DNA from: Tetraselmis striata
Lineage: Eukaryota > Chlorophyta > Chlorodendrophyceae > Chlorodendrales > Chlorodendraceae
Reading direction: 5' to 3'
Length of the DNA stretch: 64,000 bases
NCBI GenBank assembly: GCA_006384855.1
Contig: VCJN01000257.1
Coordinates: 20,148-84,147 of the forward strand
Both the position numbers and the translations under genes were made by a program. Of this stretch, positions 8,434 to 63,000 are shown one piece after another; position 1 is the stretch's first letter; the number at the start of each line of letters is the position of its first letter. The notes below the pieces were generated by a model. That model did no database searches, was not told where the DNA came from, and saw only the letters and a list, made by a program, of their open reading frames with translations.

Positions 8434-10561
8434 ATGTCGTTCAGCGATGCCCACCTCCACGACGTTTTTCTCACCCACGACTGGCAAGGCGCCGACGGCA
8501 GGAACCATGAGCGCGTGGCACGTGTGAACTGCTGCCTCCAGGAGCTTGGGCTCCGCACCTGGTTCGACGAGAGGCAAACAGGGAAAGTGCAAGAGCGCAT
8601 GGCGGAGGGGCTGAAGGACTCGGGAGGTGTGCTGGTCTTTGTCACACAGCGCTACCATGACAAGGTCACAGGCGAGGAGCAGTCAGACAACTGCAAGTTC
8701 GAGTTTGACATTGCGTTGGCGTACAACCAGGCCAACATGCTGCCAGTGGTTATGGAGTTGGACATGCTCAACCCCAAAAAATGGCGCAGAACGATGAGGG
8801 CCTTGGGCACCAAAATGTTTGTGAACCTGTCCAACATCGACAACCTCACAGACGACCAACTGTTGGGGTTTGTGGAGACAAGGCTTTTGCCCCAAATGAC
8901 TTGGCTACCGGAATCCCTGCACCAGAAGGCCGAGTCTGCGGCTGCCATCACCCCAAGAAGCAGCAGCAGCAGATCAAGAGCACCCTCCGTTGCCGTCAAG
9001 TTCGAAGAAGAGCCGGAGATGGATTTACAGGTTGAAGAACTTGATGCGCCGGTTGTCGCACCGGCTATCCATGCATCAGCAGGTACATTTTGCGCGGATG
9101 AATTACATTTGGACGGATGTAGTCTTCCTTTTGGAGTTTTCAGCATGCTCACATTTCTGTGTCAAACATGCGGTCCAGAGCTGCCAGGAATGATGGTCGG
9201 CACGGCAGATCAAGCTGAGGGTCACGGCTACTTTTCTTCTAGAGAGCGTGAAGAGTCTGGGCTGCTGATACCTGACTTTGAGCCTATGTCAGACAGCCAA
9301 GCATCAAGAATCAGCTATACCAGGAATACGGAAGTGCCGTCTGCTGTAAACCATGAGGTAATGTTGTCACCATGTTTGTTTATGGTCACTCAAGGTTAAG
9401 TGTGTTGATTCTTTTTTCTCGTTCTGTCAGGATTTCAAGAACCAAGGCACCAACAAGTTGACATCAGATCTTGAAAGGAAGGCAACTAGAGGATGGCCAT
9501 TCTCCAAGCGAGTCGCGTTTGTCTTGATTGCAGTGGTATTGCTTTTGGGTGCAGTCATTGGACTGGCAGTTGGTCTCAGTGGCAATCAGCAAGGTCAGTC
9601 AATCAATCACTCGGATCCTGTATCCTCGGTGGCTTTCACGGCGAAGCTGGAGGGGCACTCGGATTACGTGTCCTCGGTGGCGTTCAGCCCCGACGGCGCG
9701 ACGATCGCCAGCGGCAGCGGCGATACCACTGTGCGGCTGTGGGACGTGGCGAGCGGCGCGCTCACCGCCACGCTGGAGGGGCACTTGAGTCCTGTATTCT
9801 CGGTGGTGTTCAGCCCCGACGGCGCGACGGTCGCCAGCGGCAGCTGGGACGACACCGTGCGGCTGTGGGACGTGGCGAGCGGCGCGCTCACCGCGAAGCT
9901 GGAGGGGCACTCGGATTACGTGTCCTCGGTGGCGTTCAGCCCCGACGGCGCGACGGTCGCCAGCGGCAGCGAGGATACCACCGTGCGCCTGTGGGACGCG
10001 GCGAGCTTCGCGCTCACCGCCACGCTGGAGGGGCACTTGGGCTGGGTCAAATCGGTGGCGTTCAGCCCTGACGGCGCGACGGTCGCCAGCGGGAACGGCG
10101 ATGCCACCGTGCGGCTGTGGGACGTGGCGAGCGGCGCGCTCACCGCCACGCTGGAGGGGCACTTGAGTCCTGTATTCTCGGTGGTGTTCAGCCCCGACGG
10201 CGCGAAGGTCGCCAGCGGCAGCTGGGACTATACCGTGCGGCTGTGGGACGCGGCGAGCGGCGCCCTCACCGCGACGCTGGAGGGGCACTCGGGTATCGTA
10301 TTCTCGGTGGCGTTCAGCCCCGACGGCGCGACGGTCGCCAGCGGCAGCGGCGATACCACTGTGCGGCTGTGGGACGGGGCGAGCTTCGCGCTCACCGCCA
10401 CGCTGGAGGGGCACTGGGAAGGGGTCAGCTCGGTGGCGTTCAGCCCCGACGGCACGACGGTCGCCAGCGGCAGCTACGATACCACCGTGCGGCTGTGGGA
10501 CGCGGCGAGCGGCGCGCTCACCGCCACGCTGGGGAAACCCTCGCGGCTGAGTGGAGGATGA
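8434..10561 (+). CDS. TIR domain - transmembrane helix - WD40 propeller protein
   Basis: Two exons, 8434-9357 and 9431-10561, joined by a 73-bp GT-AG intron (GTAATG...TCTGTCAG, phase 0), give 684 aa. Residues ~5-155 are a TIR domain: it opens HDVFLTHDW, has a BB-loop-like WFDERQTGK, a LVFVTQRY strand and NCKFEFDIAL, where the Glu sits at the position of the NADase glutamate. A serine-rich, acidic linker follows. Residues 336-357 are one hydrophobic helix preceded by basic residues (WPFSKR), which by the positive-inside rule puts TIR in the cytosol and the C-terminus outside. Residues 378-671 are seven 42-aa WD40 repeats, enough for one closed seven-bladed propeller. The last 13 residues break the repeat pattern. 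TIR domains signal by self-association and, in many cases, NAD+ cleavage. A role as an innate-immune-type receptor is inference from architecture. The ATG at 8434 is chosen because it directly precedes the TIR domain. Confidence 0.75.
9358..9430 (+). other. Intron of the TIR-TM-WD40 gene
   Basis: 73 bp, GTAATG donor and pyrimidine-rich TTTTTTCTCGTTCTGTCAG acceptor, phase 0. Without splicing the upstream frame stops at 9397-9399. With splicing the TIR frame runs directly into the segment DFKNQGTNK and on into the membrane helix and WD40 repeats. Confidence 0.8.
9638..10519 (+). repeat. Seven 126-bp tandem repeats encoding WD40 blades
   Basis: Seven units of exactly 126 bp, each encoding a 42-aa blade of the form TATLEGH-xxx-V-x-SVAFSPDG, then VASGS and TVRLWD. 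Nucleotide identity between units is very high. Units 2 and 5 share almost the same variable residues (LSPVFSVVF), as do units 1 and 3 (SDYVSSVAF), which points to recent unit duplication or conversion. Changes cluster at repeat positions 8-12, 28-30 and 37-40 while the framework residues do not vary. Confidence 0.9.
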
Positions 10562-11559
10562 TGGCAAGCAGCGCGAGAGCCTTGGAGGGTTCCACCTCTT
10601 CCGTTTGTTGCATTTTCTGTTTACACCACTTCTCCAAATGTTCCTCTTGGGATGTGCTTCATGCATGTAAGACATGGAACAACCCGTGTATCGGATGTCC
10701 CTACTAAACACATTTTCAATTAGCCCTGACAGCATGCATGATGGGCGAGTCCACCGCTCGAGATATGCTTTGTGAACTGTGTCGAAATCTAGCGGGGTTG
10801 TGATCATATTCATGCCATCGACTGAAGATTGGTTTGATGCCCCACTTGGGTGGGGAGGGAGCTCCCGAGCCTCCCATCTGCACTTTGTGCCATGCAGTTA
10901 TAGCTAGCCAGCAGAGACAAGCTCGAAGTGTGTCGAACAAATAGGAATTTTCTCTCTAGGCTGCGCTGTCCAGGCATACCCTGGTGCTTCAGCACGCACT
11001 TGTGATCATATCCTAATCGCATAATACACGACACCGCTGCTTCCTGGCGGCATGGGGAAGTCTGTCCAAACTGTCAGTGAGCTAGCTATCTAGATTCTAG
11101 ACGTGACATATACTGCATTATGAAGCAACTTGACAGTTGAATCAGCGATGCGTCGATTTTTCAGAAAATTCTAAAAGAATGGGTTCTATATCACTGGCCT
11201 ACAGTTCCATCAATTGCATTGCCAGCGCTTTGAAGTACCATAGTTTTTTTTTCCATTACCAGCAGCGAGTAGCGAGTACCAGTACTCATAGCCTCCCAAC
11301 CGTGAGATCGTATTCGGACGGCTGTGTAATTAAGGACCGTGGGTGGGCGGGTGCTTTGATTATAGTACTCAGTATTACATGCAAGTAGATAAGCGCTTTA
11401 GTCATGCACCTATAGGCCCGATCCGCTGCACTACACGGGTACCCGTGAGGGCCCCATTTGACGTCAATCGGGGATTGTAACGGCCAAGACCTTCGCTTAA
11501 GCCCTTGCACCCTGACCGTTACGCGGTTTCAGCCCTACGGGACCCGGTGGCCCAGTACT
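10562..11559. other. Non-coding gap between the TIR-WD40 gene and the viral element
   Basis: No exon or repeat family recognised. The left border of the integrated viral element should lie in the last ~100 bp (about 11450-11560), but I could not find a terminal inverted repeat matching the right end near 24500. Confidence 0.4.
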
Positions 11560-12231
11560 TTACCGCCTCACCGCCTCACCCTCCGCCCCCGCGACGCCCG
11601 CGAACAGCTCGGCCAGCAGCGCCTCCGGGATCTGGTACGTCTTGGCCCGCCCCGTGCGGCGCTTGAACGGCCGCTTCCGCGGGTCGCCGTGCAGCCCGTT
11701 CTGGGCGCACGCCAGGTGGATGCCATGCTCGCGCTTGTAATCGCACGGATCGAGGTGGCAGTGCTTCAGCTCGAGGCCCGCCTTGTTGGTCCAGATCGCG
11801 GTGTACTTCTTATAATCCCGCCCGTATTTGCAATATGTGCACCGGTGGAGGAACGGCTCCAGCGGCGCCATGAACTCCCTTTTCCTAAGCATCCCCGTAT
11901 ACGGGTTCTCGATGAACCAGTGGCGCGGCGCGAACCACTCGATGATCTCGAGGCACTTTTGGGCGATCGAGTCCGCCAGCGCGAGGTCACGCACACCGAT
12001 CGTCTTCGCGGTGCTGTACTCGGTGCACGGCGGGCTGGCCCATATAACGTCGAAGTGCCCCTGGGGGTACGCCGACCGGTAATCCCACTCGCGCACGTCC
12101 ACCAGGTGCGTGGGGCGCGTCGAGGCGGTGGTGTCCACCGACACGTACTCCACCTTGTCGTGGCCATACATCTCGCGCAAGGCCGACCCCACGCTCTGGG
12201 ATCCCGAACAAACATCCAGAACGCGAATCAT
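11560..12231 (-). CDS. DNA (cytosine-5) methyltransferase-like protein
   Basis: 223 aa from the ATG at 12231. Motif I (SAM binding) is VLDVCSGSQSVG at residues 3-14; motif IV with the catalytic cysteine is WASPPCTEYS (res ~67-76); a motif VI-like WFIENP follows at ~107. The C-terminal RTGRAKTYQIPEALLAELF resembles the closing motif IX/X helix. It is short for a C5 enzyme (usually >300 aa), with a reduced target-recognition region rich in Cys and His, as in compact viral and phage Dcm-like enzymes. It would transfer a methyl group from SAM to cytosine in DNA, perhaps to protect the element or mark it. The reading frame stays open 85 codons upstream into the 455-bp repeat; I prefer 12231 because motif I begins three residues after it and poly(T)/A-rich sequence precedes it. 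Confidence 0.75.
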   Translation of the reverse strand: MIRVLDVCSGSQSVGSALREMYGHDKVEYVSVDTTASTRPTHLVDVREWDYRSAYPQGHFDVIWASPPCTEYSTAKTIGVRDLALADSIAQKCLEIIEWFAPRHWFIENPYTGMLRKREFMAPLEPFLHRCTYCKYGRDYKKYTAIWTNKAGLELKHCHLDPCDYKREHGIHLACAQNGLHGDPRKRPFKRRTGRAKTYQIPEALLAELFAGVAGAEGEAVRR

Positions 12232-12365
12232 TACCGATCGTGACGACAAAAAACAAGAAAATGCCCCAGGTCCGTCTTTTTGGGACGAACCTGCGCGCAC
12301 CTGGTGCTGGTAGCAGGTGTAGCAAATGAGGGTCACAAGAACCCCTCCCCCTCCCCCTCCCCCCC

Positions 12366-12820
12366 TCCTGAAAACGTTTTCGGTTCGCAGCCCCATGGGA
12401 ACATTTCCGGAGATCGTGGCTGGGTAGACGTCTGCTCTACCCCTGGTGATTTTTTGATCAGGAGCTTTCTTCGCCCACCGTATCATTTAAACGGTAAAAG
12501 CTCTGGGTAGAGCAGGTAGAGCAAAATGGGCTTTTTAAAACTTATCCCATATTCACGTTGTGAGTTTCGGGCCCGGCCGAAACTCGTTTTCCCTTACAAA
12601 AGTATTTTCCGGATTTTGCTCTACCTGCTCTACCTCTGATTAAAATGATACTAAAATTCTCTGAGAATTTCTGAAAATCAACCGGTGTACCGCTTGATTT
12701 TGCTGGGTAGACGTCTGCTCTACCTCTGCTCTACCTGCTCTACCCAGCCCCCTCGCTCGGCCTCACACAGGAACCCCTCCAGATCCGGAGCCCCTCCACC
12801 CTCCCCCCCTCTCCTCGCCC
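12366..12820. repeat. 455-bp tandem repeat, unit 1
   Basis: First of two near-identical 455-bp units between the methyltransferase and the replicase. It starts TCCTGAAAACGTTTTCGG, which includes the palindrome GAAAACGTTTTC. It carries eight copies of GTAGAGCA/TGCTCTAC in both orientations, two of them forming an inverted pair (TAGAGCAGGTAGAGCAAAA near 12518 and its complement near 12612). It is non-coding apart from spurious frames. Candidate roles are origin of replication, promoter or protein-binding array. Confidence 0.85.
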
Positions 12821-13275
12821 TCCTGAAAACGTTTTCGGTTCGCAGCCCCATGGGAACATTTCCGGAGATCGTGGCTGGGTAGACGTCTGCTCTACCCCTG
12901 GTGATTTTTTGATCAGGAGCTTTCTTCGCCCACCGTATCATTTAAACGGTAAAAGCTCTGGGTAGAGCAGGTAGAGCAAAATGGGCTTTTTAAAACTTAT
13001 CCCATATTCACGTTGTGAGTTTCGGGCCCGGCCGAAACTCGTTTTCCCTTACAAAAGTATTTTCCGGATTTTGCTCTACCTGCTCTACCTCTGATTAAAA
13101 TGATACTAAAATTCTCTGAGAATTTCTGAAAATCAACCGGTGTACCGCTTGATTTTGCTGGGTAGACGTCTGCTCTACCTCTGCTCTACCTGCTCTACCC
13201 AGCCCCCTCGCTCACCCTCACACAGGAACCCCTCCAGATCCGGAGCCCCTCCACCCTCCCCCCCTCTCCTCGCCC
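12821..13275. repeat. 455-bp tandem repeat, unit 2
   Basis: Second unit, offset exactly 455 bp from unit 1, differing at only a few positions (for example GCTCGGCC versus GCTCACCC before CACACAGG). Its end runs into the 3' end of the replicase gene, so the last ~18 codons of that gene (ending GSGGVPV) are repeat-derived. Confidence 0.85.
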
Positions 13276-15692
13276 TCCCTGGCCTTGTAGTTGCGCAGAA
13301 CGGTGACCCCCTTCGCCTTCGAGATCGCCAGTCCCTTGTTCCTGAGCTTCTGGCAGAGCTGTCGGCTTTGCTTGACGTCCACCATCTGGTCGCTGAAATC
13401 GCGGGCGGAGCGGAGCTTGCCCCAGATGTCGCTGAGGGTGACGAAGTCGGAATATTCACCCGTCTCCTCGTAAAACTCATTCAAGAACTGTCCCACGAGA
13501 TCGTTCTCCCCGAGGAAGTCCCTCGCCTCCTGTCTCACGGACTCGGGCGGGTCGAAGGCGAACCCGGTTTCGTTGTATATCTTGATCAGAGAGCTGAGGA
13601 AGGCCGCCCCGAACACCTTGCTCGAGAACTTTTTCTGGAGGGAGCGGTCCACCTGCTTCTCGTGGGGGAGGGAAGGGGAATCGACGAACTTGAACGGGTA
13701 TCGGATGAGGTCGAGGCGTCGCTCGATACCTCCTGAAGAATCGTCCACGCCCGGGATCTCGTTGAAGCACAGGACGATGTTCGCCACGCACCGGAACTCG
13801 CTGGCGGACTTGTAAAGGTCTCGGGCATGGATGAGGTCGTGGCCGGTACACTGCTTGAGGAGGCCGGCGCGAAGCGTGTCGCCCGGCTCGGCTTCGGATG
13901 CGATACAGACCCGCTTCCCCTTGAGCTTGGCCAGTTCGGATGAGAGAACGGATCCGGTGACCGATCGGGTGGCGAAGAGGCCCGCTGTCGGTTCGTAGTA
14001 ATACTGGCCGAGCGCTGAGGAGACCAGATTTTTCACGAGGCCTTTCCCGTTCCCGCCCGTTCCTGACCAGATCTGGAAGCGATCGTTGGGCCGGTCGCCG
14101 ACCACGGAGGTGGCGAGGGTTTGCAACACGTACCACAGAACCTCATCGGAAGCGTGCATGGTTTCGATGGCGTCGATGATTTCTTGTCCGATATCGCTTC
14201 CGAACATGTGGGCCTCCACGTCCGCCTGCGTGTGCCCGACGCTCATGGAGATCATGTCCTCGGGCCGCCCTTCGCGAAAGCACTTCTCGTCGAAGTCGTA
14301 CACGCAGTCCTCGAAGCCGAGGGTGTGCGTGTTGCTGTCGAGCGCCGAAAGCCACTGGGAAGGGTCGGCGACATGGTACGAGATTGCCAGCTGATCGACC
14401 AGGTCCCTTTTGAACTTCATGGTCGAGATGAATGTCAGGAGCCCCGACACGAGTTCGATCGTGAAACCGTCGGGAACCTCCTCGTTTTCGAGAATCTTGA
14501 GGGACTTCGCGACCGTCTTGTACAGGGAGGTATCGATTTTCTTCATGATGGGCTGGACGTTCATGTTGATCGGGTACCACCGCGGCGACCTGAACACGTA
14601 CCAGCCGTCGGGCTTCCCGAGGAAGGCGTACGAGTCTGGGTACATCGCGTGGAACAGTTTGGCGAGGAGGCGGTGGCCGCCCTCGAGGGCCGCCTCCACG
14701 ACCAGCTTGGTCTTGTCGTCGCGCTTGTCGGCGATCTCCTTCATCTCGGTGGCGTGGTTGGCGAACCCCTCCTCGACTTGCTGAACCCACGCCTCGTCGT
14801 CGCCGGTGAGGTCGAGTCCTTTGACGGCGAAGGAGCACTCGAGGCCGGTGGCGTCGCGGACGTGCGTTCCCAGGGCCTCCAGATCGACCTTGTGTTCGTC
14901 GGCGGCGCTGATGAGCGCTCCGTCGTGGATGAGGGAGGCCACCTGAACGCCGCCGGCGCGGAGGTGACCGATGGCCGCGAGCATGCACCGGGCCTCGAGA
15001 TCCTGGAGCCAGAGCGCAAAGGCGGTGTTCTGCCACGCCCTCCTGAGCTTCTTGGATTTCGCCGCTTTCACGAACGTCTGGTTCTCGGGCCGGGTCTCGA
15101 AGTCGCCCTTGAGCGCCACGACGGTGTAGTACAGCTCCTGGCAGATACTGGGAAGCTGGAGGGATTCCGGGATGTTGTGGTCGGCCTTCCACCCGTCGAC
15201 GGAGCCCCCGAAGATCAGGACGATGAAGAGCTCCTTCGCGACTGCGCGCGGGACGCCGGCGGCCTCCTGGACGGCGCGGAGGTGTTCCTCGCGGTTGGAG
15301 ATGTAGTCGTGGATGGCGGGGGCGTCGGGGTACTTGCCGGCGAGGAGCTGGAAGTGGGCGTTCTGCATGTCGACCTCGACGTACTTGCCGGCGATCAGGA
15401 CGCGGCGGAGGCAGCCGAGCATGTTCTGGAAGCACACGAACCGCTGGTTGGAGGGGTACATGCGGCCGATGAAGGCGTCGCCCTCGCCCGGGATCGGGTA
15501 CGCCTTCTGGACGTACTCGACCGTGGTGGAGGCGTTCTTCCTGAGCCTCTGGTGCAGCTTCTTCGCGATCGTGACGAGGGACTTGTCGATCACGGAGCTG
15601 CTGGACTGGGAAAACAATTTCTTCAAGAAATCGACGTTGTGGCAGGTTTCCGTGAGCTCGATCCGGAGGGGCATGTTGCTAGCTCCTGACAT
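13218..15692 (-). CDS. TVpol DNA polymerase - superfamily 3 helicase replication protein
   Basis: 824 aa from the ATG at 15692 (an in-frame TTG lies six codons upstream). The N-terminal part has the three palm motifs of the family A-like TVpol: motif A VDMQNAHFQLL (Asp ~108), motif B RAVAKELFIVLIFGGS (~149-164) and motif C SLIHDGALI (~253-261). The C-terminal half is a D5-type SF3 helicase: Walker A GTGGNGKG (~544-551), Walker B around VCIASEAEPG (~595), motif C with FNEIP (~643-647) and the arginine finger in RRLDLIRYPF. The TVpol-S3H fusion is known from virophages, polinton-like viruses and transpovirons and replicates the element's DNA. All catalytic motifs look intact. The C-terminal tail is encoded by the flanking 455-bp repeat and may not be original. 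Confidence 0.85.
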   Translation of the reverse strand: MSGASNMPLRIELTETCHNVDFLKKLFSQSSSSVIDKSLVTIAKKLHQRLRKNASTTVEYVQKAYPIPGEGDAFIGRMYPSNQRFVCFQNMLGCLRRVLIAGKYVEVDMQNAHFQLLAGKYPDAPAIHDYISNREEHLRAVQEAAGVPRAVAKELFIVLIFGGSVDGWKADHNIPESLQLPSICQELYYTVVALKGDFETRPENQTFVKAAKSKKLRRAWQNTAFALWLQDLEARCMLAAIGHLRAGGVQVASLIHDGALISAADEHKVDLEALGTHVRDATGLECSFAVKGLDLTGDDEAWVQQVEEGFANHATEMKEIADKRDDKTKLVVEAALEGGHRLLAKLFHAMYPDSYAFLGKPDGWYVFRSPRWYPINMNVQPIMKKIDTSLYKTVAKSLKILENEEVPDGFTIELVSGLLTFISTMKFKRDLVDQLAISYHVADPSQWLSALDSNTHTLGFEDCVYDFDEKCFREGRPEDMISMSVGHTQADVEAHMFGSDIGQEIIDAIETMHASDEVLWYVLQTLATSVVGDRPNDRFQIWSGTGGNGKGLVKNLVSSALGQYYYEPTAGLFATRSVTGSVLSSELAKLKGKRVCIASEAEPGDTLRAGLLKQCTGHDLIHARDLYKSASEFRCVANIVLCFNEIPGVDDSSGGIERRLDLIRYPFKFVDSPSLPHEKQVDRSLQKKFSSKVFGAAFLSSLIKIYNETGFAFDPPESVRQEARDFLGENDLVGQFLNEFYEETGEYSDFVTLSDIWGKLRSARDFSDQMVDVKQSRQLCQKLRNKGLAISKAKGVTVLRNYKAREGEERGGGWRGSGSGGVPV

Positions 15693-15733
15693 TTTGGTTA
15701 TTCTTGACAAAAATGTTTTCTGCTCGCGGACGC

Positions 15734-15943
15734 TTAGGCACTTTCTGCGATCTCGTACTTTCGGGGACGTCCGGGAGGCCGAACGTCGCTGCCCCGGTTC
15801 TTGTAGTATCGCGCGAGAGCGGCCTTGCGCTCCCTCTCGAGGTTGTCGACGTAGCGCTTCCTGTAATTCTCGCGGGCGATCCGCTTCTTCTTCTCGGCGG
15901 CGGATTCAACGGGGGCGATATCGATGGCTTCGGATACGTTCAT
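15734..15943 (-). CDS. Small basic AT-hook-like protein (69 aa)
   Basis: ATG at 15943, stop at 15734, 42 bp upstream of the replicase start. The middle is a basic helix (EKKKRIARENYRKRYVDN) with regularly spaced Tyr and Arg, and the C-terminus has an AT-hook-like PPGRPRKYE. AT-hooks bind the minor groove of AT-rich DNA. A similar pattern (YYMENYEALRRRALDRYYR) occurs in the small protein at 16584-16781, suggesting distant paralogues. It is divergent from the zinc-ribbon gene on the plus strand, with only 84 bp between starts. A chromatin, packaging or regulatory role is inference. Confidence 0.6.
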   Translation of the reverse strand: MNVSEAIDIAPVESAAEKKKRIARENYRKRYVDNLERERKAALARYYKNRGSDVRPPGRPRKYEIAESA

Positions 15944-16027
15944 GTTGATCCTTCTCCAGAAAATTATTTTTGTGTTCCTGACGGACGGCGCGTCTCCGGG
16001 GCGAGGAAAAAAATATCCTAGGTGAAC
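15944..16027. promoter_or_regulatory. Divergent promoter region, 84 bp
   Basis: Separates the starts of the AT-hook-like gene (minus) and the zinc-ribbon gene (plus). It contains two AT-rich patches in GC-rich surroundings: AAAATTATTTTTGT on the minus-gene side and GGAAAAAAATATCC on the plus-gene side. Each sits about 12-20 bp from the nearest ATG. No experimentally known motif is recognised. Confidence 0.45.
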
Positions 16028-16660
16028 ATGTCGTTGGAGTCCATCCCGTATCGGAAGTTCATGAACAGGTTCAAGGAGTTGGGCCACTCCGAGGAGGAGA
16101 TTACCGAGTTCGAGAATGGAGGGAAGTATGGCGAGGAATATTACCGGAAGGTGTGTGCGATGTTCGGACTGGATCCCCCACGACCGACCGGCGTGTGTGT
16201 GTGCCAAGTTGAGATAGAGCATCACCACCTGGTGTACCGCCTCCGCGACAAAAAGTGTTATCTCATCGGAAAGGACTGCATTAAGATATGGAAAGGGATG
16301 CATCGGAAGCAGATGTGTTTGCTGTGCAAAGCGAACGCGGTGAAGGCATCCTCGACGGGGGAGTCCTCGTTCATTTGCGCCACGTGCAAGAAGTCGGCGA
16401 CGAGTATCATGAGGAACGGTAAGCACGCCGGTAAAACGATTTTGGAAGTCATATCGAAAGACCCGGGATACTGCGAGTTCATAAGGGAAAACATCGGGAA
16501 CTGGGCCGTTAAGAAACCCGATTACGTGAAGCTGGTGGAGGTGTATAACATGAAAACGCGTTCAGGAACCCATCAGGAACCCATCAGGAACCCCTCGGAA
16601 CCCTCCTGGGTCTTCCCTTCTCCTGAAGAGGCGGCCGCCCCTCGTGTTCCGGGTACTTGA
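16028..16660 (+). CDS. Zinc-ribbon protein with ExoX C-terminal-like motif
   Basis: 210 aa from the ATG at 16028 (a GTG two codons upstream is less likely). A first Cys/His cluster reads VCVCQVEIEHHHL with CYLIGKDC after it; a second is a zinc ribbon, CLLC then about 17 residues then CATC. After this comes NGKHAGKTILEVISKDPGYC, which matches the G-x-x-x-G-K-(S/T)...V...DPGY pattern seen in the small C-terminal domain of exonuclease X-like proteins and in related short viral proteins. Nucleic-acid binding is the likely role; no nuclease domain is present. The last ~25 codons overlap, tail to tail, the small basic gene at 16584-16781. Confidence 0.6.
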   Translation: MSLESIPYRKFMNRFKELGHSEEEITEFENGGKYGEEYYRKVCAMFGLDPPRPTGVCVCQVEIEHHHLVYRLRDKKCYLIGKDCIKIWKGMHRKQMCLLCKANAVKASSTGESSFICATCKKSATSIMRNGKHAGKTILEVISKDPGYCEFIRENIGNWAVKKPDYVKLVEVYNMKTRSGTHQEPIRNPSEPSWVFPSPEEAAAPRVPGT

Positions 16661-16781
16661 GGCGGTAGTACCGGTCGAGGGCTCGCCTCCGGAGCGCCTC
16701 GTAGTTTTCCATGTAATATCTGCGGCACCTTTCGCGCTTCCGGAGCTTCCTGAAGAAGTCCTGGTCGTGCTGCGTCGGCAT
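16584..16781 (-). CDS. Small basic protein, possible paralogue of the 15734-15943 product
   Basis: 65 aa from the ATG at 16781; an in-frame ATG at 16808 would add nine residues and nearly touch the recombinase stop. The centre, RRYYMENYEALRRRALDRYY, has the same Tyr/Arg-spaced helix as the AT-hook-like protein, and the C-terminus ends with an AT-hook-like KGRPRRVPRGS. It follows the recombinase gene directly, consistent with co-transcription. It overlaps the zinc-ribbon gene by 77 bp on the opposite strand. Confidence 0.5.
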   Translation of the reverse strand: MPTQHDQDFFRKLRKRERCRRYYMENYEALRRRALDRYYRLKYPEHEGRPPLQEKGRPRRVPRGS

Positions 16782-16813
16782 TGTTGACCTGCGTGGCGAT
16801 ATTTTCATCCCGG

Positions 16814-18016
16814 TTAGTCCTCCTCTTCGGAGGGCGGCGCGCCCCGGAAGTACCGGAGGGACATGACGGGCTTGTGCTTGAACTTGGCGGCGACCCGCCT
16901 GACGTTCGCCTCGGAGGGGTTGGAGCCGATGAGGGTCGTGATCCACGAGTGGCGGATGGCGTTGACCCCCACGTCCAGCCCGACGTCCTCGAACGCGGCG
17001 GCCACCCTCCTGCCGACCCGGGCGGGGAACAGTTTCTTGCGCGGTTTCCTTTTGAGGGAGTCGGCGACGAGGTCGGCGTTCTCGGTGGACAGCTTGAACT
17101 CGTAGGGTGGGTACGACTTCGCGGTTTTGAACTCGGCGATCACGAGCTTGCGGGTTTGCGGGACGTAAAAGTTTTTGATCCCCTTTTGCTGGGCGGTGCG
17201 TTCGCTCTGAACGATGACGACGGAGGACAGGTCGTCTCGTATCCCCGCGAGGTCGACCTGAAGCTTGGCCTCGAGGTACCGATCTGATTGTTTCCCGAAC
17301 TTGTTCCCGATCTCGTCCAGGCCCTTCTTGATCTCGTCGAGCGGTTCGACGGTTTGCGTTTCGGTGTCGATGATGGCCTGCGTCTCGGCCTTCACGATGG
17401 CGCCGACCATGGCCTCGTGGTACGCGTCGTGCGCCTCCTGGCCGAGGGTGTCCCTGAACGGCTTGATGTACTTGGCGGTGGACACGATCGAGCCGATGAT
17501 TGTTTTGAACGAGTTCTCTTTCGGGTACCGATCGCGGACTTTCGCGATCACGGCTTCGTGATCCCGGAGGCACTTCCCGAAGTCTTCCTGGGCTTCGCAC
17601 GCGGCGATTTCCGCGATGGCGCGCACCCCGCGCTTGTACTGGTCGACGGAGCTGTCGGAGATGATTTTCGGCGACCCGTCGGGTTTCTTCGCGGGTTTGC
17701 CGTTGCGGCCGATCATCTGTTTCCCTCGTACGGCGTCGACCTTCGCGAGGATATCCTGAACGGTTTGCGATCCTGAACGGGGTTCGGGAAGGTGTACCTG
17801 AGCCTCGGGGGGTTCGTTTCCGAAATCGAGGGGCGGCAGGTCCTTCTGGGCCCTGATGCGGTTGACGTCCTCGGCGGATATGCCCCACTTGGCGAGGGTG
17901 GCGGCGCGCGGGACGTGGTCGGCGGCAATCCGATCGAGGGCGCGGCGGCGGGACTCGGTATCCCGAACCCCGGGTCGCGAGCGGCGATCGCGTTGGTACT
18001 GGGCGGTGCTGGCCAT
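16814..18016 (-). CDS. Tyrosine recombinase / integrase
   Basis: 400 aa. The C-terminal half has the tyrosine recombinase catalytic residues: Arg I in AGIRDDLSSVV (R260), a beta-hairpin lysine region around EFKTAK (~296-300), the box II motif NAIRHSW (R355, H356; the usual first His is Asn), then FKHKP (H381) and the nucleophile Tyr in LRYFRG (Y389). The N-terminal half holds a helical SAM-like arm-binding region. Such enzymes integrate virophage and PLV genomes by cutting and rejoining via a 3'-phosphotyrosine. It starts 37 bp downstream of the fibre gene stop. The Asn substitution in HxxR may lower activity but occurs in some divergent families. Confidence 0.8.
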   Translation of the reverse strand: MASTAQYQRDRRSRPGVRDTESRRRALDRIAADHVPRAATLAKWGISAEDVNRIRAQKDLPPLDFGNEPPEAQVHLPEPRSGSQTVQDILAKVDAVRGKQMIGRNGKPAKKPDGSPKIISDSSVDQYKRGVRAIAEIAACEAQEDFGKCLRDHEAVIAKVRDRYPKENSFKTIIGSIVSTAKYIKPFRDTLGQEAHDAYHEAMVGAIVKAETQAIIDTETQTVEPLDEIKKGLDEIGNKFGKQSDRYLEAKLQVDLAGIRDDLSSVVIVQSERTAQQKGIKNFYVPQTRKLVIAEFKTAKSYPPYEFKLSTENADLVADSLKRKPRKKLFPARVGRRVAAAFEDVGLDVGVNAIRHSWITTLIGSNPSEANVRRVAAKFKHKPVMSLRYFRGAPPSEEED

Positions 18017-18052
18017 TTTTCATCCCGAAGATATAAGTTTGGTGGTATTTCT

Positions 18053-21000
18053 TTAGAGGTCCACCCGGAGAACCGTGGGGGAGGACCACTGGCCCTGGGC
18101 GTGGGCGGTCATGACGGGCCTCCTGAACCCCGCGATCCTGGCGTCGATAACGATCTTGAGGCTGAGGTCGCCGACGAGCGAGGTGGACGTCCCGAAGGAG
18201 AGCGAGCCGGTTTGCGAGGCGAGGATGGTGTTGGTGGCCTGGTCGAACGAGAGGCCGAGTTCCTGGTCGGCGCTGGTGATGTACACGCCGGAGGCGGAGT
18301 GGAACATTCTCACGGTGAGCCTGACGGAGTCCACGGTCTGGACGTTTTGCGCGAGGAGGACGGAGCTTATTTTGAACCTGATCGTGTTGGGTATGTTGAA
18401 GGAGGCGGTGGCGAAGGTGCCGTCGGAGGAGGCGGCGAGGGTCCCGTGGGTGGTGGCCGCGGCCATTTCCGAGAGGAATTCGCCGATCCAGTTCAGGACC
18501 GTGAGTTCGGCGTACGTCCCGTCGTGGTCGTGGTTTTTCGGGGAGTACCGGTCCTCGGTGATTTTCTTGGTGACGAGCTGGTTGGCCGAGGGGTGGGTGG
18601 GGTTGGTCTCGATCACGGACTGGGCCGGCACGGTGATGTTGGTGTTGATGGTCCCGCTGAGGCTGAGGTAGTTGGCGTCCGCGTACCCCTTGGTCATGGC
18701 GTCGCTGGAGTTGGTGGGCGAGGCGACGCCGGTGAGCGTGTTGTTGCCGAAGTCCGCGGCGGCCAGGACGCTGAGGGTGTTGACGGTGGCGGCGACGGTG
18801 GCGTACACGTTCTGCGCGTACGACTGGGCGGAGTCGATGGTCGTGGAGTACGTGTTTTTGGCGTAGATCTTGTCCCATTTCTTGTCGATTTTGCCGAGGG
18901 AAAACGTTTCCGTGCCGTCGGGGAACACGTCCCTGTCGACTTCGCACCCGTCGGGGTGGGTTTTGAGGCGGCACACGTCGGAGCCGTCCACCATGAAGCG
19001 CACGTCGTTCCTGACCTTGACGTCGTCGGACACTTCGACGTCCTTCACGAAGATGTGGTCCCACTCGCGGGTTTCGCTCCCGAGGTCGTGGGACTGGTTG
19101 TTGTTGGGGACGATGTTTCCGGAGACTTCCACCCCGCCGGTGACGAACTTGAGGTCGGTGAAGTCCGAGGCGGTGATTCCGAGGAGGCTCCCGAGCCTGA
19201 TTTTGTCCTCCGTGCCGATGTATGAGGACTGGAGCGTTTCGCACCACACCTCGGGCCAGCGGAGCGAGCGGTCCTCCTCGCCGGTGTCGGCGGAGTAGTT
19301 CCCCCCGAAGATGATGTTGGCGAAGGCGGACGGGTCGACGGTGGCGAGGTAATCGTAGTTGGGCGAGATGGAGTATTCGCCGTAGTTGTTCACGACCCGC
19401 ATGAACTTCGCGGCTTCGACGGCGGAGAGGTCGGCGGCGCCGCCGGGGTTGGACACGGCCGCCACCGCGGTGTCGACGTACGATTTGTTGACCACGTCGG
19501 TGCCGGTCGTGGGCGCGCCCACCTGGGTGATTTTGTTGCCGTTGAGGCTCATCACGTTGGTCACGTTGAGGAGCGGGGTCTCGAGGGAGCCGATGTACGC
19601 GCCGCCGGAGGCCGTGAGGAACTGGGTGTATACGTCCCGGAAGCTGGTGTTGGAGGATCCGAGGTCCCACGTTTCGTCGAGGGTCGGCACGAGGGATTCC
19701 CCGACGAGCATGTCGCCCCCGTCGAGGTTGATGAGCGGCTTGGTGGCGCCGGTGATGGAGGCCCAGTCGGTGGCGGGCGTGGCGGCCGCGACGGCCGAGT
19801 CGACGTACGATTTCGTTACAGCCTCGGCGTCCAGCTCCGGCGTGCGCGAGAGCGTGAGCGGCCGGTCGAGCGTCATGAGGTTGGACTCGGCGTCGTAGGC
19901 GAGCCGGACGCGGTCGGTGACGGATCCGATCTCGACGACGTCCGAGAAGCGGCCGGTTTTCGCGTACAGGAAGAGCCATCTGAGCTGGTCCTGGCCCAGG
20001 TTGTACCCCATGTTGCTGGTGGGCGTGATGGAGTCGAGCGCGACGATATCGAAGTTGGACGTTTCGACGGGAAACATCTGCGGCCCGACGTTCTGCGTGT
20101 ATACGAACTTGTCGGTCCACGACGGCCGGTTGGCGAGCGTGTCCCACTCCGAGCCGGTTCCGAAATCCTGCGAGGTAACCCACGCCTCGGTCGCGTACCC
20201 CGCGAGCGACGGGATGGTGGGTTTGTTCGTGAGATCGTCATAGTTTCCCGAAAAGAGCGTCGGGGGATTCAGAACGTTCGCCCACTCGATCGAATCGGCC
20301 GTGAGAACGAGATCGTTGTCGAATCCGCTGAGGGGAACAGTCGCTTGGGAAGTGGCGACCCACGCGGGGATCGTGGGGATCGTGGGAGTATCCGCGAGAT
20401 CGTTGTAACTTCCCGAAAAGAGTGTGGGTTTGTTCAGAACGTTGGCCCACTCGATCGAATCGGCTGTGAGAACGAGATCGTTGTCGAACCCGCTGAGGGG
20501 AACAGTCGCTTGGGAATTCGCGACCCACGACGGGATCGTGGGGATCGTGGGTTTATCCGCCAAATCGGTATAAGATCCCGAAAAGAGCGTGGGTTTGTTC
20601 AGAACGTCGGCCCACTCCACGGAATCGGCCGTGAGGGAAAGATCGTTATCGAATCCGCTGAGGGGAACAGTGTTCTGAGAAGTGGCGACCCACGCGGGGA
20701 TCGTGGGGATCGTGGGCGTGTTCGTGAGATCAGTATAAGATCCCGAAAAGAGCGTGGGTTTGTTCAGAACGTCGGCCCACTCCACGGAATCGGCCGTGAG
20801 AACGAGATCGTTGTCGAAGCCGCTGAGGGGAACGGTCGCTTGGGAAGTGGCGACCCACGCGGGGATCGTGGGGATGGTCGGTGTGTTCAGGACGTCCTCC
20901 CAGTCGACGGAGTACGAGACGGAATCGCCCTCGAGGAGGACGCGGCGCGAGGTTCCGCCGGAGTCGCTCGCGAAGAGGTTGTCGGCGTACACCGCGCCGA

Positions 21001-21904
21001 AGTGGCCCTCGAGGAACGGGAAGGTGGAGTTGCCGAGCCGGGCGAGCGGCGGGAAGCCGGGGTTGACGTCGTCCGGGACGAGGTCGCCCTTTATCGTGAT
21101 CCCCTGACTGAAAACGTTTTCTTCCAGCCTGGGCGTGGCGAGCGCGGAGGTCACGACCTTGCGCCAGGGGTCGTTGGAGGTTCCGAGGTCCAGCGTGTCG
21201 GCGGCGTCGCCCACGGCCGCGTTCCCCCCGCCGGGCGCGGCGACGAGTTTGAGCGCGGAGCCATGCGCCGCGAGCTCGAGGAGTTCCGAGAGGGTGTACG
21301 AGCCGGCCTCGCCGAGGAAGGAGGTGAACGTGAGGAGGTCCGGGTTCGAGAGGGTGGCCTGCGACGCGTACACGTGGCGCCAGGGGTTGCTGGGTTCGCC
21401 GAGGTCGAACAGGTTCGCGAACGGGACGCGGAGCGTGCCGAAAACGTCGATGCGGCCGGGGTTATCGTCGTGCGCGCCGATGGCTTTGGGTTCGAGCACG
21501 TCCACGATGAATCGCGCCTTTTCGGTTTGCGGGATGTACCCCGTCACGTCCACGGCGGCGACCTGGTTGCTGAGCGCGGCGATGAGATCGTCCTGGCGGG
21601 CCTGGTCGGCGAACAAATCGTTACATGCGGATTCTAGGGTTGCTATGGCGCCGTCCTGGCGGTCCTGGTCGAGCCAGATTTCGTTACAGGCGGTGGCGAG
21701 GTCGAGGTCCTGGCGGGCCTGGTCGACCCACACGTCGTTGCTGAGCCCGTCGAGGTCGAGCTCGAGGTCGCTAAGGTTCGCCTCCGCCTCCGCGAGCTGG
21801 TTGCTGAGGCTCTCGAGTTCCAGCTGAAGCTCCGAATTGTCCACCTCGAGCGTCCGCCTGCCGTTGACTCTCAAGGGCGCGAACGCCGTCCGAGACCTCT
21901 GCAT
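18053..21904 (-). CDS. Giant tail-fibre-like attachment protein (1283 aa)
   Basis: The N-terminal ~120 residues form a coiled coil with DQARQD-type repeats. There follow repeated D-L-G-x-S...W/F-x-x-V/I-Y modules (for example DLGEPSNPWRHVY at ~168-180 and DLGSSNTSFRDVY further on), a pattern common in phage, giant-virus and PLV fibre shafts. Residues ~333-563 are four to five 55-aa repeats with the classic fibre motif Y-x-D-L-x-x-x-P-T-I-P. The last ~130 residues are a non-repetitive, beta-rich region that could be the receptor-binding head. A trimeric fibre attached to the penton is the likely role; the penton gene is immediately upstream and overlaps it. Large size and modular repeats fit recombination-driven host-range change (inference). 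Confidence 0.7.
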   Translation of the reverse strand: MQRSRTAFAPLRVNGRRTLEVDNSELQLELESLSNQLAEAEANLSDLELDLDGLSNDVWVDQARQDLDLATACNEIWLDQDRQDGAIATLESACNDLFADQARQDDLIAALSNQVAAVDVTGYIPQTEKARFIVDVLEPKAIGAHDDNPGRIDVFGTLRVPFANLFDLGEPSNPWRHVYASQATLSNPDLLTFTSFLGEAGSYTLSELLELAAHGSALKLVAAPGGGNAAVGDAADTLDLGTSNDPWRKVVTSALATPRLEENVFSQGITIKGDLVPDDVNPGFPPLARLGNSTFPFLEGHFGAVYADNLFASDSGGTSRRVLLEGDSVSYSVDWEDVLNTPTIPTIPAWVATSQATVPLSGFDNDLVLTADSVEWADVLNKPTLFSGSYTDLTNTPTIPTIPAWVATSQNTVPLSGFDNDLSLTADSVEWADVLNKPTLFSGSYTDLADKPTIPTIPSWVANSQATVPLSGFDNDLVLTADSIEWANVLNKPTLFSGSYNDLADTPTIPTIPAWVATSQATVPLSGFDNDLVLTADSIEWANVLNPPTLFSGNYDDLTNKPTIPSLAGYATEAWVTSQDFGTGSEWDTLANRPSWTDKFVYTQNVGPQMFPVETSNFDIVALDSITPTSNMGYNLGQDQLRWLFLYAKTGRFSDVVEIGSVTDRVRLAYDAESNLMTLDRPLTLSRTPELDAEAVTKSYVDSAVAAATPATDWASITGATKPLINLDGGDMLVGESLVPTLDETWDLGSSNTSFRDVYTQFLTASGGAYIGSLETPLLNVTNVMSLNGNKITQVGAPTTGTDVVNKSYVDTAVAAVSNPGGAADLSAVEAAKFMRVVNNYGEYSISPNYDYLATVDPSAFANIIFGGNYSADTGEEDRSLRWPEVWCETLQSSYIGTEDKIRLGSLLGITASDFTDLKFVTGGVEVSGNIVPNNNQSHDLGSETREWDHIFVKDVEVSDDVKVRNDVRFMVDGSDVCRLKTHPDGCEVDRDVFPDGTETFSLGKIDKKWDKIYAKNTYSTTIDSAQSYAQNVYATVAATVNTLSVLAAADFGNNTLTGVASPTNSSDAMTKGYADANYLSLSGTINTNITVPAQSVIETNPTHPSANQLVTKKITEDRYSPKNHDHDGTYAELTVLNWIGEFLSEMAAATTHGTLAASSDGTFATASFNIPNTIRFKISSVLLAQNVQTVDSVRLTVRMFHSASGVYITSADQELGLSFDQATNTILASQTGSLSFGTSTSLVGDLSLKIVIDARIAGFRRPVMTAHAQGQWSSPTVLRVDL
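20215..20905 (-). repeat. 165-bp tandem repeats in the fibre gene
   Basis: Spacing is exactly 165 bp (anchor GAAAAGAG at 20250, 20415, 20580, 20745), encoding 55-aa units each containing WVATSQATVPLSGFDNDL and a PTIPTIP turn. Units differ at a small number of positions. The fifth, outermost unit diverges near 20890. The length keeps the reading frame, so gain or loss of units would change fibre length without breaking the protein. Confidence 0.9.
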
Positions 21905-22637
21905 TATTGTGACTTATTCTGAGTTTTATTGTGGCGGTCCACCGGGAGCCGTTGAGGTCGAGGAAGCGGCCGTTGTCGTCCTCCAGGCGACACACGATGA
22001 AGGAGACGGCCATGTTTTTGCACTCGACCCACGCGTCGGTCGTGTGGTGCTCGAGCTCGTTGAACTGGGACGTGAGCGGGATCTTGGCGAGGACGTTGGA
22101 GGTGCGGCGCGTGATGGGGTCGCGGTTGGAGGTGTGGAGGGACGTGCGGAGGAAGATGGAGGAGGTTCGCGTGAGGTCGACGCCGCGGGGCGCCTCGAGC
22201 TGGCCGTCGGAGCTGGTGTCGCCTGGGGCTAGCCCGAGGAGGGATGAGCATGTGGTGGCGGCGTCGACGGCGACTTCGGCGATGTGGTCCGAGACGAGCG
22301 TCACCTTGTTGGTGGCGGGCGAGTACACCATTTCGAAGGTGTACAGGAGGCTGGGGTTGACGAACTCGATGAGCTCGTCGATCGACCTGTTCCCGTGCGG
22401 GAGGGTTATGATCTCGGCCCGGCCGCCGGGATCGCCCGGGGTGTAGTACCGGAGCGCGAGGGTGTCGTTGTCGGCGAAGACCGAGTAAAAGGTGTGCGGG
22501 ATCCACGCGTTCAGGAGCCGCGCTTCGAGGAAGTGGCGGGCCGGGACGTCGATCGCGTCGGGGAGCCAGAACACGTGCGATCCGTCGGGGAACACGAAGT
22601 CGCTGTGCTGGGTGTCGAGAAACAGCTGCTGAAGCAT
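21771..22637 (-). CDS. Penton-like minor capsid protein
   Basis: 288 aa as an open frame. The N-terminal half contains ARLLNAWIPHTFYSVFADN (~39-57), resembling the N-A-x-I-P-x-S/T-F/W-Y-N element of PLV, virophage and polinton minor capsid (penton) proteins. It is followed by a GN-x-S-I-D-E-L-I segment and alternating beta-strands typical of a single jelly roll. It would form the capsid vertices. The last ~45 codons overlap the fibre gene by 134 bp in another frame and read like a shadow of it, so the original stop was probably near 21910 and has been lost. Assignment rests on motif resemblance and position next to the fibre and ATPase genes. Confidence 0.6.
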   Translation of the reverse strand: MLQQLFLDTQHSDFVFPDGSHVFWLPDAIDVPARHFLEARLLNAWIPHTFYSVFADNDTLALRYYTPGDPGGRAEIITLPHGNRSIDELIEFVNPSLLYTFEMVYSPATNKVTLVSDHIAEVAVDAATTCSSLLGLAPGDTSSDGQLEAPRGVDLTRTSSIFLRTSLHTSNRDPITRRTSNVLAKIPLTSQFNELEHHTTDAWVECKNMAVSFIVCRLEDDNGRFLDLNGSRWTATIKLRISHNNAEVSDGVRALESQRQADARGGQFGASAGTREPQQPARGGGGEP

Positions 22638-22647
22638 TTCAGTTTAC

Positions 22648-26280: not shown

Positions 26281-27042
26281 TGATATGCTCGTCGCAATCC
26301 TTAGCGCTATCACACTAATCCTTGGCGGTAGCGCCTGGAACCCTTCTTCTACTTGCTGCACATGGGTACCCGAGTCGCTACTCGCTACTGCGACTCGCTA
26401 CCAGAGGCTTATCGCTCTTGTGGTCGCTTTATTTTACCGCCTGGCAGTCGCGCCATTGTAGGAGCCGTATTTTATATAGCGAGCGATCCTTATTATACGC
26501 TGATTAGCACCATTAGTAGCTGATTCGTACGTGCAGTCGCGCTACGACAGTATCTGCTAGCTACGGCGACTGTACTACTACCAGGGGCGGTAGTGGTACG
26601 GTAACTAATAATAAAAATTCCGCCGACAGGTACAGGTACGCGCACCTGCTACTAAGGGATAAGGATCACCACACGTGAAGATTTTTCGTACGTCGTCGCG
26701 CGGTGCTACATATATAGTGGCTATTATCCCCTTATACACGACTCCGGGTATGGGCAGTGGACTACTGGTATGGGTACTGCTATGGGCCTTACGCGACTAC
26801 CCGTACCAGGTATCGCTCGTAGATATTTGCCAATACCCCGTCCCGTACTGGTACCAGAAAGAGAATATTGTGGGCGGGTTAGTGAATCCAATTAGGGAAT
26901 CTTCCTACTCGCTGTAGTAACTGTAGTGCGCCTGTGTGTGTACTCGCTACCAGTAAAGCAGGTACTACTCGCTACACCTACTAGCGACTACACCTCGCTA
27001 CACCTACTGCTGGCTGTACTCGCTACGTGCAGCGACTGTTTT

Positions 27043-27348
27043 CGTCCCACTGATGACAGACCGTTTCGTCCCACTGATGACAAACCGTTTCGTCCCACTG
27101 AGGACAAACCGTTTCGTCCCACTGATGACAAACCGTTTCGTCCCACTGATGACAAACCGTTTTGTCCCACTGATGACAAACCGTTTCGTCCCACTGATGA
27201 CAAACCGTTTTGTCCCACTGATGACAAACCGTTTCGTCCCACTGATGACAAACCGTTTTGTCCCATTGATGACAGACCGTTTTGTCCCACTGATGACAAA
27301 CCGTTTCGTCCCGCTGATGACAAACCGTTTCGTCCCACTGATGACAGA
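27043..27348. repeat. 24-bp minisatellite, left arm (about 13 units)
   Basis: Units of CGTCCCACTGATGACAAACC followed by GTTT, with C/T and A/G variants (TGTCCC, GACAGACC). It is open in several frames because the unit is 24 bp without stops. Confidence 0.9.
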
Positions 27349-28841
27349 CCTATTTCCCTTGCAAGACCTTAAGTACTGCGGTTTAATTATGTTGTGTGCT
27401 TAACTACTGCGATTGATCAAAATGCTAAATAACCACTCATGACGGTCGATGTGTATGGGGGAGTACAGGTCAAAGCTCCACCTGCTCACCCTCCGCCCCC
27501 CCCCCCCTCAGTCCACCACCAAACGTCCCTACTAGTGCCGCCGCGGCGGCCTGACGAGACATGTAATACTACCTAGCAGGACCATGATACCGCTCGTCTC
27601 GTTCGGGCTTGTATTCCTGCCGACTTAGTTGCCTATCCAACTCGAACGCGGGCGTACATTACACCGCATCCGGAGGGGACCTGACCGAACTCGCCAGATC
27701 TGGCCGCAACACGCGTCGAGCAGGCGGGCATGTACTGTAAGCGCGCACAACTCACCTGGGGTGGCATCGTCCTTGTCTCCTTGGCGTGCCGAGAGGTGCG
27801 CCTGCTGATCAGAGACGAGCCCTTGCCAGTCTCGTTGTCGGCGACCTCACCGGAGTACTACTCCATATGTACTTTCTTTTCTCAACCTCCTTCCGATCAC
27901 AGGCACGCGCGTCGCAATCACACGAGTAGTCGCTGCGGCACGAACGCGGCGGTACTGTACTTGTGGTGTGTGACGCGCCCGATCCTAGATAGAGAAGAGG
28001 CCGTGCTTTCGACCGTCGCCATGCTGCAGCGTTGGGCGAGTGGTGGGGGCGGTGGAGGACGGTGATCTGTGGTGAGGAAGAGGCGGCGGATGATGACCGT
28101 TCTCGGACGGGCCGTTGACTGGGCGGCATAATCTCAAACTATGGGTAAAAATAATTGACCGAGCTGCTGATAGTTTTGTACTAGTACGTATACCGAAATC
28201 CAATCCAAGGAATATATCATCCCATACGGGAATATTATTGCCACGCTACTGTATACTCTCGTACCGGTATGACTCTCGAGTAGAGAATATATAATCCCAT
28301 ACGGGAGAACCAGTAATCGCAATTTATATTCGCAGTAGTTTGCCCTTTATATTCGACGCAGTGCAAAGTACATGTACGGAGGCACCTGATGACCACAACG
28401 AGGTGCACTATAGTGCGCGCGCGCGCGGTTGGTCTGGCAGGGGTCAGAGCGGCGGCAAACGGAAATCAGGTCATTTCCACCTCACCCTCACCGCTCCCGA
28501 CCCAGAACCCGCCGCTGATCTGCCGCGCCGGACCCAGCTACCGCCAGGATGGCGCAGCACAAGAACGAGCCTGCCAACGGGAAATAAGACAAGGATGACG
28601 CCACCCCAGGTGAGTTGCGCGTACAGTAGCTGCCTGCCTGCTCGACGTGTGATGTGGCCAGATCTGTCTCGTCGCCGCGGCGGGACTAGTGAGGATTCCT
28701 GGTGGTGGACTAGGGGGGGGGGGGGGGGCGACTCCCCTATACACATCGACCGTCATGAGTGGTTATTTAGCATTTTGATCAAGCGCAGTAGTTAAGCACA
28801 CAACATAATTAAACCGCAGTACTTAAGGTCTTGCAAGGGAA

Positions 28842-29226
28842 ATAGGTCTGTCATCAGTGGGACGAAACGGTTTGTCATCAGCGGGACGAAACGGTTTGTC
28901 ATCAGTGGGACAAAACGGTCTGTCATCAGTGGGACAAAACGGTTTGTCATCAGTGGGACGAAACGGTTTGTCATCAGTGGGACAAAACGGTTTGTCATCA
29001 GTGGGACGAAACGGTTTGTCATCAGTGGGACAAAACGGTTTGTCATCAGTGGGACGAAACGGTCTGTCATCAGTGGGACGAAACGGTTTGTCCTCAGTGG
29101 GACAAAACGGTTTGTCATCAGTGGGACGAAACGGTCTGTCATCAGTGGGACAAAACGGTCTGTCATCAGTGGGACGAAACGGTTTGTCCTCAGTGGGACG
29201 AAACGGTCTGTCATCAGTGGGACGAA
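28842..29226. repeat. 24-bp minisatellite, right arm (about 16 units)
   Basis: The reverse-complement counterpart of the left-arm array, with about three more units and a different order of variant units. The two arms have therefore changed independently in copy number since they arose. Confidence 0.9.
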
Positions 29227-62976: not shown

Positions 62977-63000
62977 TTGATCCCAAACAGCTCCGCAGAA

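Follow-up and report, generated by a model that had tools for sequence, protein, structure and literature searches.

A putative TIR-transmembrane-WD40 membrane receptor family with a variable propeller surface in the green alga Tetraselmis striata

The window, a 64,000-nt stretch covering C200:20148-84147, lies in the 224 Mb genome of Tetraselmis striata, a chlorodendrophyte, which is assembled in 2903 contigs. The gene at window positions 8434-10561 (plus strand) is a nuclear gene of this marine green alga and one of four copies; it is called paralog A here. The gene consists of three exons. Exon 1 (8434-9082) holds the start codon, the TIR domain (about 8449-8907) and the start of a linker, and is followed by a GT donor at 9083. 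The next 96 nt (9083-9178) form intron 1, a stop-free GT-AG intron whose length is a multiple of three and which is skipped in the protein records P0001, P0002 and P0004. Exon 2 (9179-9357) encodes the rest of the predicted cytosolic linker. Intron 2 (9358-9430, 73 nt, GT-AG) is absent from P0004 and kept in P0001. Exon 3 (9431-10561) encodes a juxtamembrane segment, the transmembrane (TM) helix (9512-9577), a short stalk, the WD40 propeller with its seven repeats (9641-10522) and the stop codon. The initial annotation described one clean intron of 73 bp; that intron stands, and intron 1 was overlooked within its first exon. Because P0001, P0002 and P0004 are without the 32 residues encoded by intron 1, the spliced product of paralog A has 652 residues and not 684 as first given.

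Two of these records look cDNA-derived, since introns are missing from them. P0001 (JGI, 1383-nt contig) has intron 1 removed and intron 2 kept and encodes a 290-aa TIR-linker protein. P0004 (JGI, 1895-nt contig) has both introns removed, with the TM segment kept and joined to WD40. It is partial, beginning in the linker and having three repeats, by eye it is a mosaic of several paralogs, and it is probably a short-read assembly of transcripts. Retention of intron 2 in paralog A brings the frame to an end at TAA 9397-9399 and leaves a TIR-only protein with neither TM nor WD40. Transcripts ending at 9399 had been named as evidence against a joined receptor. Such a form appears to exist, as P0001 keeps intron 2 and stops at this TAA, but it occurs beside the joined form of P0004. 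The closest named proteins belong to the JGI set Tetstr1 and are the public gene models of paralog B (P0002, TSEL_003136) and paralog C (P0003, TSEL_011941). These models, which need not reflect transcripts, begin 22 residues further upstream, where paralog A has no in-frame ATG. An upstream coding exon of paralog A was considered and rejected, the in-phase frame having a stop across the one junction examined.

Several other features lie in the window. A DNA methyltransferase ORF adjoins paralog A at 11563-12486 on the minus strand (phrog_757, 4.1e-15; no Pfam match). Large minus-strand ORFs at 11500-22643, five of which were scanned and have no Pfam match, give weak matches of integrase-like (phrog_216, 0.009) and of tail-fibre-like or head-decoration-like kind; this region is possibly an integrated virus-type element. 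Four tandem copies with 165-nt spacing lie at 20201-20995 within a 1286-aa minus-strand ORF. A large inverted repeat at 26400-29894, with arms of up to 617 nt at 97%, encloses arrays of a 24-nt tandem repeat, and a protein kinase gene lies at 62908-63849 on the plus strand (Pfam Pkinase, 3.1e-65).

The N-terminal TIR domain claimed for this gene is well supported. Pfam TIR_2 matches residues 11-133 (5.5e-10; 40.2 bits against a cut-off of 28). Over residues 1-363 of the unspliced version TIR_2 is the sole Pfam match up to E 1, with no NB-ARC or NACHT NTPase, and no LRR family is found there or among the best 25 of 48 Pfam matches. As a single sequence the TIR of paralog A finds no match in the PDB up to E 1. 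A nine-row TIR profile matches Cat1 (3.5e-6), which we take to be an NADase TIR, and 3h16 (0.0026); its matches to Roq1 (0.027), AbTIR (0.046) and SARM1 (0.23), in the range 0.02-0.24, are too weak alone. Glu90 (codon 8701-8703) belongs to a C-x-x-E motif and is invariant in all 15 aligned rows, several of which are near copies. When profiles are compared, the motif aligns with the C-x-x-E of TIRs from cyanobacteria. By alignment, Glu90 presumably occupies the position of the catalytic Glu of NADase TIRs, as the initial annotation had it, and the domain may act as an NADase. Between paralogs the TIR dN/dS is 0.16-0.35 in all six pairs, with few changes (3.5-12.5 nonsynonymous per pair), and by this measure the TIR is constrained.

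The single membrane helix, flanked by basic residues towards the TIR, is also upheld. It spans residues 304-325 of the 652-aa protein, is indicated by hydrophobicity, charge bias and paralog conservation, and has five Lys or Arg in the preceding 15 residues and none in the following 15. The 19-residue Kyte-Doolittle mean in paralog A reaches 3.06 (computed on the unspliced version), and basic residues lie on the TIR side of the helix in all four paralogs. The TM segment is near-identical across the four paralogs and P0004, and a genome search with it finds matches at the four family copies only. With five basic residues before the helix and none after it, an N-in/C-out orientation is predicted and thus a cytosolic TIR. 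On the propeller side only paralog C has a Cys, a single one, and sequons are limited to one each in paralogs A and B. This scarcity of Cys and sequons means that the propeller has no positive mark of an extracellular location. If exon 3 were spliced past the helix, the mature protein would be a soluble TIR-WD40, an NLR-like sensor without a nucleotide-binding domain. P0002 does skip the TM segment and P0003 keeps its last third only, and related arrays occur in P-loop WD40 frames, a kind of protein that we would expect in the cytosol. However, the two models cut at different places and the stretch that they skip is an open frame, the segment is near-identical in the four paralogs, and P0004, though partial and mosaic, has the helix joined across both introns. 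We consider a soluble product quite unlikely.

The seven near-identical 42-aa WD40 repeats reported at first are confirmed by Pfam (WD40, 6.1e-90, seven stretches) and by a DNA period of 126 nt. The mean pairwise identity of the repeat units of paralog A is 81%, with a range of 74-93%. In the PDB the array matches the WD-40 repeat protein 2ymu, the WRAP proteins, which we take to be designed proteins, and the WD40 domain of the kinase PkwA. The nearest array outside the family is in the same genome, on contig C1221, with 79% identity to the array of paralog C, and bacterial arrays reach at most 64% to that of paralog A; the two values come from different queries and give a rough comparison. 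A frame was read in 76 of the 78 bacterial loci closest to the paralog A array, and an N-terminus of at least 100 aa in 45. No TIR is found among the best 25 of 136 Pfam matches of these 45 N-termini, which are of WD40, NACHT, nSTAND1 and AAA types instead. Two frames of T. striata (L058 and L059, on C1221 and C2068) combine a P-loop motif with near-identical repeats in 14 WD40 stretches. From the P-loop motif they were read by eye as NACHT-like; the best 25 of their 60 and 54 Pfam matches include no NACHT and are all of WD40 type. Very many WD40 frames, many with in-frame stops, also lie among the matches listed at C2379:22403-187004 (minus strand; genome G000), suggesting a cluster of WD40 genes that derives from repeats or is decaying.

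The four copies of the gene are A in the window, B at C200:5038, C on C828 and D on C2490. A and B carry nearly the same array, while the arrays of C and D differ. Seven complete WD40 units are present in A and B, and six are read by pattern in C and D, with a seventh cut short at the end; no polymorphism in repeat number is seen among the four copies, all of which have seven repeats when the incomplete seventh of C and D is counted. Paralog D has a Pro-rich stalk between helix and propeller, a linker segment triplicated together with its intron, and a TAG that ends its seventh and last repeat. In paralog C a TAG is read if intron 1 is spliced at the sites homologous to those of A. Six further T. 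striata loci have related TIRs (46-50% identical) in frames of 221-408 aa. By eye they are without WD40, and the one scanned with Pfam gives TIR_2 alone; weaker TIR matches exist in the genome beyond these ten loci. Between paralogs B and A, at C200:8050-9162 (L057 1051-2163), a six-repeat WD40 fragment is preceded by an antisense copy of the methyltransferase region, with which it is in frame, and resembles a relic of array shuffling. Protein searches, which reach close relatives only, gave 8, 3 and 3 matches, among which the TIR-TM-WD40 order occurs in T. striata records and in no other eukaryote.

Variation within the 42-aa unit falls at positions 7-9, 11, 27, 29 and 36. In the HNWD unit of Podospora, Paoletti and colleagues (PMC1805685, in the part available) describe codons 7, 9, 25 and 27, which flank the conserved positions 8 and 26, as under positive selection and place them on the top face of the modelled propeller. 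Aligned on conserved residues, these codons correspond to positions 9, 11, 27 and 29 of the algal unit. In 18 complete units of A, C and D, the four positions rank 1, 2, 3 and 5 of 42 in entropy, with position 8 fourth; this count omits one D unit that carries an extra residue, as well as the seventh units of C and D, which are incomplete. The entropy sum of the four positions is reached by 2 of 111,930 four-position sets. At these positions pN is 0.630 and pS 0.358, against pN 0.058 and pS 0.146 at the other 38. The picture is the same in 31 units from all copies and the stray fragment, and likewise in the arrays of the two P-loop proteins. The parallel drawn at the outset with the WD40 recognition modules of fungal NLR-like proteins thereby gains quantitative support. 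As pairwise counts are not independent, the figures lend support to diversifying selection at the predicted propeller surface and do not constitute a formal test. Between paralogs, dN/dS is 0.64-1.23 for the linker and 0.56-0.96 for whole WD40 arrays, which is not above 1. In five of the six pairs dS is higher for WD40 than for the TIR, from A-C (0.203 vs 0.048) to the weakest, B-D (0.117 vs 0.102), and the order is reversed in A-B (0.004 vs 0.058). This pattern fits, without proving it, an exchange of arrays between copies.

In an alternative reading, repeat shuffling would have produced the WD40 array as a by-product that became joined to a TIR gene; the TIR-only form with intron 2 retained would be the functional product, and the full-length family would be decaying. 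P0001 is such a TIR-only form, paralog C meets a stop on splicing of intron 1, paralog D has a stop in its last blade, and the six-repeat fragment lies behind the antisense methyltransferase copy. But all four copies are open through the helix into the seventh repeat (complete in A and B), the helix is conserved, and the repeat positions away from the surface are constrained, with pN well below pS. We find a decaying family quite unlikely.

The initial annotation knew of no described family with the TIR-TM-WD40 order; the order is not unique to the alga and is present in cyanobacteria. A query made of the TIR, linker and TM of a cyanobacterial TIR-TM-WD40 protein from G002 (with L131, Nodosilinea sp. 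P-1105) matched, within the class to which G002 belongs, 77 of 291 genomes at E <=1e-20. The 30 loci taken for reading are best matches rather than a random sample, and one is the query's own gene. By pattern, 25 gave readable TIR frames and five gave none. All 25 frames match TIR_2 and 18 match WD40 at E <=1e-5; WD-like motifs are seen in 18, behind a hydrophobic peak at frame residues 203-222, after the TIR. The loci were cut about 1.5 kb from the match, which limits the readable units, and six of the 18 arrays have at least five units by strict pattern. For these six, between 1 and 31 of 23,751 sets have an entropy sum as high as that of the four positions. Since the same four positions vary in the arrays of the P-loop proteins and of cyanobacteria, the pattern is a general property of arrays of this type and does not single out the algal receptor. 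Three cyanobacterial frames (L162, L163 and L165) have three TIR matches in a row, with WD40 after a hydrophobic helix plain in L162 and L165 and less so in L163. In the parts of the open-licence papers available on TIR with WD40, TM or propeller, on green algae and on cyanobacteria, no TIR-TM-WD40 family is named, and the term TIR-WD40 has no occurrence among the matches listed from that literature.

A tree was built from 28 TIRs. Those of the four algal TIR-TM-WD40 copies group together (95/91) and adjoin the alga's six TIR-only proteins (96/97). The 12 cyanobacterial TIRs stand apart (100/100); the root is a midpoint root and long branches are flagged. Because the closest kin of the TIR in this tree are TIR-only proteins of the alga itself and the repeats are nearest to arrays of the same genome, the layout was probably assembled separately in the alga and in cyanobacteria. 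Local assembly, in which a resident TIR would have been joined to a new TM segment and an array from an NLR-like pool, is the simplest history. Transfer of the whole layout from cyanobacteria is opposed by the TIR tree and by repeats closer to the alga's own arrays, and a later swap of the TIR after such a transfer is possible. A bacterial origin and viral relatives of the TIR were also considered and rejected. With a three-row TIR alignment, 29 pattern matches in bacterial and archaeal genomes and 36 in viral contigs include no relative, in scans that depend on short conserved words and so overlook distant relatives.

We give about an even chance to the reading that paralog A encodes a type II single-pass membrane receptor, with a diversifying WD40 propeller as sensor and a cytosolic TIR NADase as effector. 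The N-terminus and TIR would lie in the cytosol, and the seven-bladed propeller would face the cell exterior or the secretory lumen. Its recognition surface would be kept diverse by changes of a few top-face residues per blade on a nearly identical scaffold and by exchange of arrays between copies. A non-self or partner ligand would bind the propeller and cluster the protein. The clustered TIRs would then associate with one another and either cleave NAD+ or produce a nucleotide signal, and a defence or death response would follow. Retention of intron 2 would yield an untethered TIR, able perhaps to act without the receptor or to amplify it. As the initial annotation proposed, a propeller sensor and a TIR effector on opposite sides of a membrane agree with the charge bias at the helix, the Pro-rich stalk of paralog D, the variable propeller surface and the mirror-image protein P0007; the receptor function itself is what we infer. 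Ligand-driven clustering of a TIR NADase is favoured because of the charge bias and the PDB matches of the TIR profile and the array. The protein could instead reside in an inner membrane (ER, Golgi or endosome), with the propeller as a lumenal trafficking or scaffold module and the TIR as an adaptor without enzyme activity. The propeller bears no positive mark of surface exposure and its sequons are few, and TIR domains are described as most commonly forming signalling complexes (PMC7075850, in the part available). The conserved Glu of the C-x-x-E motif, with the best PDB match to Cat1, an NADase TIR, argues against this, and a hypervariable propeller surface is unexpected of a housekeeping scaffold. 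Such an adaptor appears unlikely.

Tentatively, unicellular green algae may have evolved a cell-surface TIR receptor independently of animals, plants and cyanobacteria, with a propeller diversified by repeat exchange and by selection at the surface codons of fungal allorecognition genes and with intron retention yielding an untethered TIR effector, so that one gene would provide both a sensor and a death switch. If this is true, the membrane logic of a sensor on one side and a TIR on the other has more than one origin, here with LRRs replaced by a WD40 propeller, and diversification of the fungal non-self-recognition type also acts on a green algal membrane receptor. A lytic virus of T. striata, TsV-N1, is known (PMC10120064, in the part available), so binding, NADase and death assays look feasible.

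Animal Toll-like receptors have one membrane helix between an LRR ectodomain and a C-terminal TIR. The description of the algal protein as Toll-like is apt in logic, one helix separating ectodomain and TIR, but the TIR is at the opposite end, LRRs are absent, and the proteins are not homologous as a whole. Related TIRs occur in other settings in proteins from elsewhere (P0005-P0008), in P0009 with ankyrin-type domains and in P0010 alone. One of these proteins is P0007 (Pfam FG-GAP_2, 2.9e-43; TIR_2, 2e-11), with a hydrophobic N-terminus and a TM segment between the domains by eye. Its TIR is 43% identical to that of paralog A and it has a propeller across one helix, but in mirror orientation, propeller first and TIR last, with FG-GAP in place of WD40. 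As far as predicted helices indicate, P0007 and the cyanobacterial proteins show that the separation of a TIR from a propeller by one helix recurs.

The fungal HNWD proteins of Podospora anserina (het-D, het-E and het-R), in the parts available of PMC1805685 and PMC2873952, share internally conserved repeats and variation at the positively selected codons. They differ in having HET and NACHT domains and a variable repeat number, whereas the alga has a TIR and a helix, no NTPase, and seven repeats in all four copies. The mean unit identity in paralog A is slightly below the 85% repeat identity threshold used for fungal NLRs (PMC4986451, in the part available). In the red alga Chondrus crispus, 23 of 58 NB-WD40 genes have a TIR and a transmembrane dipeptidyl-peptidase-like domain (PMC7145615). 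These proteins (see also PMC9806590; both sources in part) likewise combine TIR with WD40 in an alga, but carry a nucleotide-binding domain, which is not found in the green algal protein; the comparison here is one of architecture. From the parts available of three further papers, TIR-NBD-WD40 has been named as a class (PMC9153377), seven chlorophyte TIRs fall in a mixed group (PMC7075850), and, of the four APAF1_C/WD40 homologs that T. striata has, two contain NB-ARC (PMC8891106). The P-loop WD40 frames on C1221 and C2068 share the genome, repeats (for C1221, at the identity given above) and variable positions with the receptor family, and differ in that a P-loop NTPase motif replaces TIR and helix.

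Dictyostelium TirC (preprint, PMC13142454, in the part available) is likewise a TIR with a membrane helix, toxic once the helix is removed, and differs in that the available part reports no ectodomain. According to its authors this TIR was acquired from bacteria, and they speculate that an alternate transcript without the helix could activate TirC. By analogy, the algal form that keeps intron 2 may be the counterpart of that transcript. The cyanobacterial TIR-TM-WD40 proteins (e.g. Nodosilinea sp. P-1105, L164/L168) share with the alga the TIR, the helix preceded by basic residues, the C-terminal WD40 and, in the six arrays above, the four variable positions. Their TIRs are distant (19% identity in a profile alignment) and form the separate group described, their spacers are longer and helical or coiled-coil-like, and they have no introns. 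These counterparts offer a bacterial model of the TIR-TM-WD40 layout.
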